NCBI RefSeq assembly: GCF_003993795.1
Contig: NZ_RWKV01000008.1
Coordinates: 930,001-994,000, forward strand
Length of the DNA: 64,000 nt
Direction of reading: 5' to 3'
DNA from: Aquabacter cavernae
GTDB lineage: Bacteria > Pseudomonadota > Alphaproteobacteria > Rhizobiales > Xanthobacteraceae
Numbering within the stretch: the first letter of the stretch is position 1; each line of letters begins with the position of its first letter. The notes under the pieces were generated by a model. It searched no databases, was not told the DNA's origin, and saw only the letters and a list, made by a program, of their open reading frames with translations. A program made the position numbers and the translations under genes. Shown here one piece after another: positions 15,047 to 31,178 of the stretch.

Positions 15047-17134
15047 TTACTCAGCCGCCACGGCGGCCACACCGCCCAGCCGCAGCGCCGAGCATTCCGC
15101 CATGACGGCGGAAGCGCGGGCGATGGGGTTGGTCAGGTAGAAATCCGTGATCACGGGGGCAAAGCCCCCCTTGTCCGTGTTCCCGCCGCGCTGCGCGAGC
15201 GCGGTGAGGCCCGCCGGGTCCGCCGCCTCGATGGCACCGATCCGGCCGATATGAGGATGTGCCGCCACCAGCGCCGCGCGCAGCGCGGAGAGCTGGTCGT
15301 AGGGCAGCTTCTGGCCCAGAACCTCAGAGAGCGCCCGCAGGATCGCCCAGTCCTCGCGCGCATCCCCCGGGGGGAAGGCGGCGCGGTTGGCGAACTGAAC
15401 CCGCCCTTCGGTGTTCACATAGAGGCCGGACTTTTCCGAATAGGCCGCGCCCGGCAGGATCACGTCCGCCCGGTGGGCACCGCGATCGCCATGGGTGCCC
15501 AGATAGACCACGAAGGCGCCCGGAGCGACGTCGATCTCGTCCGCGCCCAGCAGGAACACCACGTCCGCGCCACCCGGCGCCGCGAGGGCGGCGGCATCGA
15601 GCCCGCCTTCCCCCGGCACGCAGCCCACATCCAGGGCACCGACGCGGGAGGCGGCGGTGTGGAGCACGCCGAAGCCGTTCCAGCCGTCCTTCACCGCGCC
15701 CACGGACAGAGCGAGACGCGCGGCGAGGGAGAGCACGGCGGCGCCGTCGGCACGGGCCAGAGCCCCCTGCCCCACGATCACCAGCGGCTTCTCCGCGCCC
15801 TTCAGCACGTCGGCGAAGGTGCCGGAGCCGGCGAGATCCGCCAGGGTCTCGGGGCCGGCGCCGAGATATTCATAAGGATAGGTCAGGTCCGCCTGCGCGC
15901 CCACGAGCGCGATCTTCAGCTTGCCGCCCGTGGCGCGCCAGCGCTTGCGGATGCGTGCATTCAGGACCGACGCCTCGTGGCGGGGATCGGTGCCCACCAG
16001 CAGGATGGCGTCCGCCTCCTCGATGCCGGCAATGCCGGCATTGAACAGGTAGGAGGCGCGCCCGAGCGACGGGTCGAGCGCCGCGCCGTCCTGGCGGCAG
16101 TCGATGCTGGCGGAGCCGAGCTTGGTCAGCAGCTGCTTGAGCGCGAATGCTTCCTCGACGCTCGCCAGATCGCCGACGATGGCGCCGATGCGCTTGGCGG
16201 GGGTGGCCTTCACCTTGGCGGCGACGGCGTCGAACGCCTCCGGCCAGGTGGCGGGCACGAGGCGGCCGCCCTTGCGCACATAGGGGCGATCGAGGCGCTG
16301 GGTCTTCAGGCCGTCCCACACATAGCGGGTCTTGTCGGAGATCCACTCCTCGTTCACGGCGTCATTGGTGCGCGGGAGGATGCGCATCACTTCGCGGCCA
16401 CGGGTGTCGATGCGGATGTTGGAGCCGACCGCGTCCATGACGTCGATGGACTCGGTCTTGTTCAATTCCCAGGGACGGGCATGGAAGGCGTAGGGCTTGT
16501 GGGTGAGCGCGCCCACCGGGCACAGGTCCGCCACGTTGCCCTGCATCTCGGAGCGCATGGCGTGCTCGAGATAGGTGGTGATCTCCATGTCCTCGCCGCG
16601 CCCGATGGCGCCGAGGTCCGATGCGCCCGCCACCTCGGTGGTGAAGCGCACGCAGCGGGTGCAGTGGATGCACCGGTTCATGGAGGTGCGCACCAGCGGG
16701 CCGATATACTTGTCCTCGACCGCGCGCTTGTTCTCCGCGAAGCGCGACGTGTCCACGCCATAGGCCATGGCCTGGTCCTGGAGGTCGCACTCGCCGCCCT
16801 GGTCGCAGATGGGGCAGTCCAGCGGGTGGTTGATGAGGAGGAACTCCATCACCCCCTCGCGGGCCTTCTTCACCATGGGGCTCTTGGTGAGGACGACCGG
16901 CGGCTCGCCGTTCGGGCCGGGGCGCAGGTCCTTCACCGCCATGGCGCACGACGCGGTGGGCTTGGGCGGTCCGCCCTTCACCTCGACCAGGCACATGCGG
17001 CAATTGCCGGCGATGGACAGCCGTTCATGGAAGCAGAAGCGCGGAATCTCGACGCCCGCCGCCTCGCACGCCTGAAGCAGCGTGTATTCGGCGGGAACGT
17101 CCACCTCGGTTCCATCGACGACGATCTTCGCCAT
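15047..17134 (-). CDS. nuoG: NADH-quinone oxidoreductase subunit G
   Basis: The large 75-kDa-type iron-sulfur subunit (695 aa). The N-terminal [2Fe-2S] motif is intact ([20 protein letters not shown] plus a Cys at TASC). The N5 site [14 protein letters not shown] with its His ligand and the [10 protein letters not shown] cluster motif follow. The rest is a molybdopterin-oxidoreductase-like fold without a cofactor site. The start [14 protein letters not shown] is one base after the stop of the preceding VOC gene. The longer open frame to 17305 merely runs back through that gene. Confidence 0.97.
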
Positions 17135-17135
17135 C

Positions 17136-17519
17136 TCAACTTTCCTCGTCTCGCGCCGGGCACTCGCCGGAAACCGGAGCGCCGAAGCGCAGCAGGTTCC
17201 CATCCGGGTCCCAGACATAGAATTCGCGCATGCCCCATGCGCGATCTGCCACTTCCGAGATGTGCCCGCCTTCGCGTGCCGCCCCCAGAGTGGCGTGCAA
17301 ACCATCCACGTCGTCCGCCCGAAGATAGGCGGACGTGTTCTCGGCGATCCTGCGGTCCTGGCAATGCCAGAACTGAAGCTCGATGCCGTCCCGCATGACG
17401 ATGCCGTAATGCGGGTATTCGCTCTTCACCTCGAAGCCCAGCTTGTCCCGGTACCAGGCGAGCGTGGCGGGAAGATCCGCCGCCGCCAGGATGGGACAGG
17501 CCCGCAGGAGGCGCGCCAT
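17136..17519 (-). CDS. VOC/bleomycin-resistance-like protein inside the nuo operon
   Basis: A 127-aa glyoxalase-fold protein, [16 protein letters not shown] at the start, then [30 protein letters not shown] and [19 protein letters not shown] at the end. The spacing of the paired half-domains resembles the bleomycin-resistance branch of the VOC family, which binds drugs rather than catalysing a reaction; the real ligand is unknown. The start is 3 bases after the nuoF stop, and nuoG starts 1 base after its own stop, so it must be co-transcribed with complex I. It is not a known complex I subunit. Confidence 0.85.
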
Positions 17520-17521
17520 TC

Positions 17522-18823
<1,302 letters not shown>

Positions 18824-18826
18824 CGC

Positions 18827-19504
18827 TCACTCCTCCGGGTCGCGCACGCCGGCGGCGGCGGGCGCCTCGGCCGTCGCGCCGCCCGCGGAGGGGCCGCGCG
18901 TATAAAGGCTCGGATCAGTCAGGCTGGTCAGCCCCAGTTCCGGCGACGATCCCTGACGACCGACCTGGGAGCCCGTCTTCACCGGACGATCCGCCCGCAG
19001 ATCATCGAGGAGCTTGGCGAAATTATCGGGGGTCAGGTCTTCGTAATAATCGTAGTTGATCTGGGCCATGGGCGCATTGGCGCAGGCACCCAGGCATTCC
19101 ACTTCCAGCCAGGACAGCGCACCGTCCGCGCTCACATGGCGCTCCGGGCCGATCTTGCTGCGGCACACGTCCTTCAGTTCCTCGGAACCGCGCATCATGC
19201 AATGCGTGGTCCCGCAGAGCTGGACGAAATGGCGCCCCACCGGCTCCAGGTTGAACATGGTGTAGAAGGTGGCGATTTCGAGCACGCGAATGCTCTCCAT
19301 GCTCAGACGATCCGCCACTGCGCGGATGGCAGGCTCCGGCAGCCAGCCACCCGCCTGCTCCTGTGCCTTCCACAGCAGCGGAACCACCGCGCTCGCCTGC
19401 CGGCCTTCGGGGTATTTGGCGATCTGCTGAACGATCCAAGCCTCGTTCTCCGCCGTGAAGGCGAAGCTCTCGGGTTGGACGGCAGCGAGGCGGCGGACGG
19501 ACAT
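18827..19504 (-). CDS. nuoE: NADH-quinone oxidoreductase subunit E
   Basis: The 24-kDa-type [2Fe-2S] subunit (225 aa). The four cluster cysteines are in LCGTTHCMMRG and ECLGACANAPMAQIN. An Ala/Gly/Pro-rich tail of about 40 residues after the core is common in alphaproteobacterial NuoE. The ATG shares its A with the stop of the upstream secreted-protein gene (TGATG). Confidence 0.97.
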   Translation of the reverse strand: MSVRRLAAVQPESFAFTAENEAWIVQQIAKYPEGRQASAVVPLLWKAQEQAGGWLPEPAIRAVADRLSMESIRVLEIATFYTMFNLEPVGRHFVQLCGTTHCMMRGSEELKDVCRSKIGPERHVSADGALSWLEVECLGACANAPMAQINYDYYEDLTPDNFAKLLDDLRADRPVKTGSQVGRQGSSPELGLTSLTDPSLYTRGPSAGGATAEAPAAAGVRDPEE

Positions 19505-19896
19505 CAGCGGCTTCCCGGAGTCAGGATTCGACAGTCATTGTAGGCGCCGCCCACCCGGGCGAGGCCGCAGTCGGCGTAAACGCCGCCCTTGTAGAGGCGC
19601 AGCGCGGTGCCATCCACATGGGCGAAGGCACCGCCGGTGCCCGGCACGCCGCTCTCGGGAATGAGAGCCGCGCTCACCGGCGTCCAGCCCGTCTCCAGCA
19701 GCTGGTAGGCGGTGATGCGCTCCACCACCACGGCCACGGGCGGCGGGGCGGGAACGACCGGCACCACCACCTGCGCGGGGGTCTGAACCACCATGGGATA
19801 GGGCATGATCATGACGGGATCAGCCGCCAGGGCGGGAACGGCGGCGCACGCGAGCACGCCGGCGGAAAACAGAGTCTTGAGAGAAACGCTCATCAT
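19504..19896 (-). CDS. unknown exported protein inside the nuo operon
   Basis: A 130-aa protein I do not recognise. It begins [20 protein letters not shown] with a clear signal peptide ending near PALAA. A Pro/Val-rich linker follows ([19 protein letters not shown]), then a small C-terminal domain with two cysteines in [16 protein letters not shown]. It should therefore reach the periplasm, whereas its neighbours are complex I subunits. Its ATG overlaps the nuoD stop and its stop overlaps the nuoE ATG, and GGAGGTGG precedes the start, so expression with complex I is nearly forced. Confidence 0.8.
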
Positions 19897-21101
19897 CGGT
19901 CCACCTCCCCGAACACTATGTCGAGGGAGCCCAGCACCGCCGACACGTCGGCGAGCATGTGCCCGCGACACAGGAAGTCCATGGCTTGCAGGTGGGCGAA
20001 TCCGGGAGCCCGGATCTTGCAGCGGTAAGGCTTGTTGGTGCCGTCCGCCACCAGATAGACGCCGAACTCACCCTTCGGCGCCTCCACGGCGGCATAGACG
20101 TCGCCTTCCGGCACGTGGAAGCCTTCCGTGTATAGTTTGAAATGGTGAATGAGTGCTTCCATGGAGCGCTTCATCTCGCCCCGCTTGGGGGGAGTCACCT
20201 TGTGATCCAAGGAATGGGCCGGGCCCTCTTCCTTCAGCAGGCGCTCCACGCACTGGATCATGATCTTGTTCGACTGGCGCATCTCTTCCATGCGCACGAC
20301 ATAGCGGTCGTAGCAGTCGCCGTGCTTGCCGATCGGGATGTCGAAATCCAGCTCGGAATAGCACTCATAGGGCTGCGAGCGCCGCAGGTCCCAGGCCGCG
20401 CCCGAGCCGCGCACCATCACGCCCGAGAAGCCCCAGGCCATGGCGTCCTGCAGGGAGACGACGCCGATATCCACGGTGCGCTGCTTGAAGATGCGGTTGC
20501 CGGTGACCAGGTTGTCGAGGTCGTCCAGCAGGTTCGGGAACGTGGCGCAGAAGGTGCCGATATCCTCGACCAGCTTCTTCGGCAGGTCCTGGTGCACGCC
20601 GCCCGGCCGGAAATAGGCCGCATGCATGCGGCTGCCGGAGGCGCGCTCATAGAACATCATGAGCTTTTCGCGCGCTTCGAAGCCCCACAGCGGCGGGGTG
20701 AGCGCGCCCACGTCCATGGCGAAGGTGGTGACGTTCAGAAGGTGCGAGAGCAGGCGCCCGATCTCGGAATAGAGCACGCGGATGAGCTGGGCGCGCTTGG
20801 GCACCTCGATGCCCAGCAGACGCTCCACCGCCAGGCAGTAAGCGTGCTCCTGGTTCATGGGCGCGCAATAGTCCAGGCGGTCGAAATAAGGCACGGCCTG
20901 GAGATAGGTCTTGGCCTCGATCAGCTTCTCGGTGCCGCGATGAAGCAGGCCGATATGCGGATCCACCCGTTCCACAACCTCGCCGTTCAGCTCCAGCACG
21001 AGGCGGAGCACGCCGTGGGCGGCGGGATGCTGGGGGCCGAAATTGATCTGGAAATTGCGAACCGGAGCGGCGGGCCGGGGGCTTTCGAGGGTCTGGGCCA
21101 T
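19893..21101 (-). CDS. nuoD: NADH-quinone oxidoreductase subunit D
   Basis: The 49-kDa-type subunit (402 aa) that forms the quinone pocket with NuoB. It has [49 protein letters not shown] and [15 protein letters not shown]. It ends [12 protein letters not shown], the usual family C-terminus. It lies 11 bases downstream of nuoC. Confidence 0.97.
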
Positions 21102-30311: not shown

Positions 30312-31178
30312 ATGACCGCGCTTCAAGACATCACCTCCACCGCCCCCACCCTGCCCGCGGCCCTGACCATGGGCGCCGTGGTGCTGCGCAGCCGTGACCC
30401 CGACCGGCTTGCGCCCTTCTATGAGCAGGCCGTGGGCCTCAGGGTGATGGCGCGCGATGCGGACCGGCTGGTGCTGGGCGCGGGGCTGCTGCCCTTGGTG
30501 GAGATTCGGCGGGATGCGGCGGCGGCACCTGCCGACCGGCGTGCGCCGGGCCTGTTCCATCTCGCCGTCCGCGTCCCGAACCGCCGCGCCTTGGCGGAGC
30601 GGGTCATGGCCCTCCATCAGGCGGGCATTCGCTTTGGCGCCTCGGACCATCTGGTGAGCGAGGCCCTCTATATCGACGACCCCGACGGCAACGGCGTCGA
30701 GATCTATTGCGACCGGCCCAAGGCCGACTGGCCGTGGCAGGACGGGCGCATCTCCATGGCCACCATGCCCCTGGACCTCGCCTCCCTCGCGCCCCTTGCA
30801 CCGCCCGTTCCCGGCCCGGCGCCCGCCGGAACGGATATGGGCCATGTGCACCTGAAGGTGCGCGATCTGGCCGAAGCGGAAGCCTTCTGGGTGGGGCTGC
30901 TCGGCTTCGAGCTGATGACCACCTATCCCGGCGCCCTGTTCGTGGCGGCCGGTGGCTATCACCACCATGTGGGCCTGAATGTCTGGTCCTCGCGCGGCGC
31001 GCCAGCCCTGAAGCCCGGCCATGTGGGCCTCGACCACGTCACTGTGCGGGTGCCCGGCACGGCGGTGGAAGCGCTGGCCGAGCGGCTGAAGGCGGCCCGC
31101 TATCCGTTCGAGACCGTGGACGGCGCCTTGTCCCTGCGCGATCCCAGCGGAAATGGCGTGCAGTTTCACGCCGCGTAA
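30312..31178 (+). CDS. VOC-family dioxygenase-like protein, two domains (CatE type)
   Basis: A 288-aa protein built of two VOC domains, about residues 18-135 and 176-288. Candidate metal ligands are His in FHLAVRV and Glu in DDPDGNGVEIY in the first half, and His in GHVHLKV, HVGLDHVTVRV and the second NGVQFH in the second half. The length and layout match the Bacillus CatE-like extradiol dioxygenase family, but no catechol pathway genes are nearby, so the substrate is open. GGAAGGACGACAAG precedes the ATG. Confidence 0.75.
   Translation: MTALQDITSTAPTLPAALTMGAVVLRSRDPDRLAPFYEQAVGLRVMARDADRLVLGAGLLPLVEIRRDAAAAPADRRAPGLFHLAVRVPNRRALAERVMALHQAGIRFGASDHLVSEALYIDDPDGNGVEIYCDRPKADWPWQDGRISMATMPLDLASLAPLAPPVPGPAPAGTDMGHVHLKVRDLAEAEAFWVGLLGFELMTTYPGALFVAAGGYHHHVGLNVWSSRGAPALKPGHVGLDHVTVRVPGTAVEALAERLKAARYPFETVDGALSLRDPSGNGVQFHAA

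Follow-up and report, generated by a model that had tools for sequence, protein, structure and literature searches.

The nuo operon of the window, the stretch of 64,000 nt analysed here, lies on the minus strand and contains, between nuoF and nuoG, a gene for a protein of the VOC superfamily. We hold it probable that this is an optional cargo gene, co-expressed with nuo, for a metal-independent small-molecule-binding protein. The features of the region are:

15047..17134, minus strand: nuoG, 695 aa, downstream neighbour of the VOC gene, over the cut-off of TIGR01973
17136..17519, minus strand: VOC gene, 127 aa, product structurally of the bleomycin-binding type (BlmA/ZbmA/ShBle)
17140..17147, minus strand: probable Shine-Dalgarno sequence of nuoG, GAGGAAAG, within the 3' end of the VOC gene
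17522..18823, minus strand: nuoF, 433 aa, upstream neighbour of the VOC gene, over the cut-offs of NCBIfam NF010120 and TIGR01959
18827..19504, minus strand: nuoE, 225 aa, next gene upstream of nuoF in the same operon

The VOC reading frame was complete, with an ATG at 17519 and the stop codon at 17138-17136. The sequence-only reading had located a complete gene of 127 aa at exactly these coordinates, to which we add the strand, and had placed it between nuoF and nuoG, in agreement with the NCBIfam and TIGR matches of both neighbours. It had given gaps of 3 and 1 bases; the 1 nt between the VOC stop and the nuoG start was correct, whereas the spacing between the nuoF stop and the VOC start was 2 nt. 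The conserved 3' end of nuoF, GCGGCGGA, precedes the VOC start, and the Shine-Dalgarno sequence of the next gene likely lies within it. Since the probable Shine-Dalgarno sequence of nuoG is inside the 3' end of the VOC gene, translation of nuoG would initiate out of the VOC coding region. From the spacing of 1-2 nt and this Shine-Dalgarno arrangement we infer that the VOC gene is expressed together with nuo, very likely by co-transcription and translational coupling. No internal promoter was found from 16900 to 18000. A single terminator-like hairpin inside the VOC frame was given little weight, because 0.3 are expected in shuffled sequences; termination there would cut off nuoG. Another non-subunit gene within the nuo operon is a small ORF between nuoD and nuoE (window 19504-19971, minus strand), which has a signal-peptide-like start and is conserved in the related genomes L031 and L032.

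The VOC protein matched the Pfam model Glyoxalase (PF00903) with 42.7 bits, over the gathering cut-off of 20.6, and its best PDB relatives by sequence were ZbmA, BlmA and ShBle, with E values down to 1.9e-15. Its initial designation as a VOC/bleomycin-resistance-like protein was thus confirmed. The ORF is not a product of chance, since 12 other genomes have homologues with 54-88% identity at this junction. An AlphaFold model for which 14 relatives were used (pLDDT 92, pTM 0.83) and its structural matches in the PDB revealed the fold of paired beta-alpha-beta-beta-beta modules. Structure comparison returned 232 PDB chains at Z ≥ 8, and those listed were VOC proteins. The Z scores were 18.5 for ZbmA, 18.4 for ShBle and 17.8 for BlmA (range 17.7-18.5, rmsd 1.6-2.2, 110-119 residues), and those for E. 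coli GloA (11.4) and FosAKP (11.7) were clearly lower than for these bleomycin-type binders. A second glyoxalase/extradiol-dioxygenase-like protein, with two domains and 288 aa, is encoded outside the nuo operon (window 30312-31178, plus strand).

That the nearest solved structures are bleomycin and zorbamycin binders, and that Pro9 and Trp95 are kept, would fit a gene acquired as an immunity gene, whose product binds bleomycin, phleomycin or zorbamycin-type glycopeptides. Such a role in drug resistance appears quite unlikely to us. Bleomycin and zorbamycin binding proteins also provided the best NCBIfam models, but all of these matches were well under their cut-offs, with 69.5 bits for BLMA (NF033156) against a curated cut-off of 140, and identity to the drug binders was about 35% or less. 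Position 33, where ZbmA and BlmA have an aromatic residue that contacts the drug, is Ser in the window protein and S, L, M, R, F or W in the other group members, and binding of bleomycin is only putative.

The VOC protein also has its superfamily in common with glyoxalase I and thiol transferases, and could be a metal-dependent enzyme that detoxifies methylglyoxal-type or NADH-derived by-products. The ligands H5, E56, H74 and E122 of E. coli GloA align to C8, E47, Y65 and R111 of the VOC protein, so that Glu47 is the only one of the four His/Glu ligands that is kept. The residues at the other three positions are themselves conserved: Cys8 and Tyr65 are, like Glu47, invariant among 14 relatives, and at position 111 the residue is either Arg or Lys. 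Without the ligand set, glyoxalase chemistry that depends on a metal is unlikely, and the metal-ligand positions and structural scores ruled out an ordinary lactoylglutathione lyase. With a model that is far nearer to the non-enzymatic binders, we regard a metal-dependent detoxifying enzyme as very improbable. The residues at the GloA ligand positions and the structural scores rather suggest that the VOC protein works like a metal-independent binder.

The order nuoF-VOC-nuoG was found in 13 genomes, the window's own included, by scanning a single genome for each species and by searching the family. These genomes span Xanthobacteraceae, Beijerinckiaceae, Methylobacteriaceae and Rhodobiaceae and comprise the window and L031 (the window's genus), L032 and L004 (Aquabacter and a relative), L035, L037 and L042 (Xanthobacter), L040 (Methylobacterium), L039 and L041 (Beijerinckiaceae MAGs), L034 (a Rhodobiaceae MAG), L038 (MnTg02) and L036 (an unclassified proteobacterial MAG). 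Xanthobacter agilis and X. tagetidis are among the species with this gene order. This comparison of junctions across relatives, set beforehand as a test that could refute the link to nuo, excluded a strain-specific oddity. A universal nuo accessory gene was likewise ruled out by the distribution in order and class. When the order was sampled evenly, with the window's genome included, a strong VOC match (E <1e-60) was present in 3 of 397 genomes, each time linked to nuo, and was missing in 394, so that the gene does not generally accompany nuoF and nuoG. The class sample beyond the order contained no VOC copy at E <1e-60 (0 of 384 genomes). All but one of the homologues with more than 50% identity were at the nuo site. 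At least 7 changes were needed to account for the presence of the VOC gene on a NuoF tree with 56 genomes. Regarding mobile carriage, only relatives with less than 60% identity were found on plasmids. No published description of the nuoF-VOC-nuoG arrangement was found in the literature covered, which left out most subscription journals.

Among four genomes of the window's genus with a readable junction, the VOC gene was kept in two, a relic was present in one and nothing in one. The relic (G077) lies in a gap of about 150 nt and matches the window gene at 77% over 83 nt (E 2e-13); the gap of about 180 nt in G006 holds unrelated sequence. A Xanthobacter-like genome (G041) also has a relic, with 84% over 69 nt, in which most of the middle is deleted and the frame is thus internally deleted, and its junction contains an unrelated membrane ORF as well. 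Seven Xanthobacter-like genomes have gaps of 118 nt that share about 30-40 nt beside nuoG with this relic. Since the common stretch takes in the ribosome-binding site of nuoG, these gaps were not counted as relics.

The only close homologue away from nuo (67% identity), in a MAG (L033, 2859-4867), separates the alpha subunit gene of a class-I fumarase from the beta subunit gene and is preceded by fumarate reductase-like genes. L033 and G161 are probably the same genome. The fumarase pair is present without VOC in four congeners, and the same fumarase subunit tail in these VOC-less congeners ruled out that the VOC copy had brought the nuoF 3' end along. In the VOC tree the fumarase-linked copy stood beside the nuo-linked copy of L036 with a support of 100/93, and a single monophyletic nuo-linked VOC group was rejected by the AU test (p 0.018). 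Between VOC and nuo trees no significant conflict was seen, in a test that is weak for such a short protein (p 0.55 for the grouping of L034 and L038, p 0.12 for Xanthobacteraceae). In this test the VOC data rejected no nuo grouping and did not demonstrate a horizontal transfer of VOC apart from nuo; the gene may thus have been co-inherited with nuo for a long time and lost many times.

The dN/dS of the VOC gene (Nei-Gojobori estimate) was 0.15-0.21 for L039-L040 and for pairs drawn from Xanthobacter or from the Aquabacter relatives, which indicates a working, maintained protein in those lineages. For the window and L031 the value was 0.52, resting on few changes, compared with 0.05 for NuoF. 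Constraint may therefore be weak in the window's genus, and VOC function may be fading there. The VOC gene evolved several times faster than NuoF in the pairs window-L031, L032-L004 and L039-L040. In the Xanthobacter pairs its dN/dS converged with that of NuoF, and VOC and NuoG were similarly constrained. The value of 0.52, the changes of conserved residues in L031, the nearest relative (Y23S, C53G, N61T), and the relics in sister genomes might be taken to mean that the gene of the window is a decaying remnant without function. This is extremely improbable in our view, since the gene is intact in the window, its product still has the invariant pocket residues and is predicted to fold with confidence, and purifying selection acts in other lineages.

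Besides the junctions above, we compared 40 nuoF-nuoG junctions of the family and 60 of the order; of the latter, 56 were readable. The gap sizes lay between -1 and 1453 nt. Of the 56 order junctions, 27 measured 60 nt or less and 24 more than 150 nt; the VOC gene was found in none of them. Recurring occupants were DUF3291 proteins (PF11695, 3e-47) and pentapeptide-repeat proteins (PF00805, 3e-16), as well as a coiled-coil protein about 70 aa long and small proteins, either membrane or hypothetical ones. The nuoF-nuoG junction is a general slot for optional small genes. Within the family (119 genomes), all 10 DUF3291 genes were located between nuoF and nuoG, 6 as seen from coordinates and 4 from sequence. 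In the class sample DUF3291 adjoined nuoF in only 2 of the 13 genomes that have it, and most copies were elsewhere.

Junctions with DUF3291 occur, for example, in L202, L203, L204, L205, L211, L103, L105 and L111. Short pentapeptide-repeat-like ORFs, sometimes beside DUF3291, were seen at the junctions of L086, L096, L103, L142, L148, L150, L172, L183, L184 and L193. The coiled-coil ORF of about 70 aa (L083, L084, L087, L088, L098, L108, L110, L156, L168) had only a sub-threshold Pfam match, to DUF7310. Hypothetical proteins at the junctions of L036 (5781-6443) and L101, from different genera, share the motif RQ-Y-LGYL-L-F and are apparently related.

The strict placement of the VOC gene between two electron-input subunits in 13 genomes could also point to an accessory factor of the NADH-dehydrogenase module, which protects or repairs something at the flavin and iron-sulfur site of NuoF/NuoG or assists in the assembly of NuoE/F/G, with the slot selecting helpers. 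Class-I fumarase is an iron-sulfur enzyme, and the sole exception to the VOC placement, the fumarase operon beside fumarate reductase-like genes, is likewise respiratory. The preference of VOC and of DUF3291, which is also small and limited to the same slot within the family, keeps this explanation under consideration. It is nevertheless unlikely, as the great majority of nuo operons have nuoF and nuoG intact but no VOC gene, and as this gene was lost in sister genomes, is replaced by unrelated ORFs, and evolved several times faster than NuoF in three close pairs; in the Xanthobacter pairs the dN/dS values converge. A wider version, in which the nuoF-nuoG junction of Hyphomicrobiales would be a dedicated slot for small interchangeable helpers (VOC, DUF3291, pentapeptide-repeat and coiled-coil proteins) with the NADH-input module as their target, e.g., as binders of an inhibitor or of a damaged cofactor close to the flavin site, we consider unlikely. 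The tie to NADH oxidation and protection of the flavin site that the sequence-only reading had proposed was not supported: the gene is missing from almost all nuo operons of order and class, sister genomes show it deleted or in decay, the slot often holds unrelated small genes, and a close VOC copy was found in a fumarase operon instead. As a whole, that interpretation was partly supported.

Because the gene is optional and often lost, and the slot often contains other small genes, the VOC protein is probably not part of complex I. As optional cargo at nuoF-nuoG, the gene would be co-transcribed and translationally coupled with nuo, and its product would act outside complex I and independently of its function. 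The protein is predicted to form a homodimer that would sequester its ligand in clefts, and the host would gain steady expression of a protective binding protein. Against the cargo explanation count the lack of significant conflict between VOC and nuo trees, which fits long co-inheritance, the preference of VOC and DUF3291 for the nuo site, and the dN/dS of 0.52 in the window's genus. Since nearly all homologues above 50% identity and all family DUF3291 genes are located there, selection may favour cargo whose role is connected to nuo. Where an operon for a core respiratory enzyme has an extra gene between those of two catalytic subunits, one is tempted to a functional story, and the coming and going of the VOC gene at a tolerant junction is a warning against inferring function from operon position alone. 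The nuoF-nuoG junction is a recurrent variable site in a core operon that has so far been little described. If VOC or DUF3291 proteins did act on complex I, this would give uncharacterised families a role and provide new handles on the NADH-input module.

The nuo/nqo operons of Paracoccus and Rhodobacter capsulatus contain unidentified reading frames (URFs). They are like the VOC gene in being non-subunit ORFs among alphaproteobacterial complex I genes, whereas here one identifiable family recurs exactly at nuoF-nuoG across families, in a slot shared with others. The complex I of Paracoccus has the supernumerary subunits PdNUMM, PdNUYM and PdN7BM (PMC8115037), which are also small proteins associated with alphaproteobacterial complex I; in contrast to these, the VOC gene occurs sporadically and has often been lost, and its product is probably not in the complex. 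With E. coli GloA and the FosA-type thiol transferases the VOC protein shares the superfamily, but the GloA His/Glu ligands are absent and the Z scores are about 11.5. The BLMA-type binders BlmA (1qto), ShBle (1byl/2zhp) and ZbmA (4iag/5cj3) are closest, with common fold and length (Z 17.7-18.5), Pro9, the motif GREF-x3-DP-x-GN and the absence of the metal-ligand set, although identity is about 30-35% or less and the NCBIfam cut-off is not reached. Unlike them, the VOC protein has no conserved aromatic residue at position 33 and carries invariant Cys8, Glu47 and Tyr65 together with Arg/Lys111 in the ancestral metal positions, and its gene, of which plasmids carry only distant relatives (<60% identity), is located in a respiratory operon.
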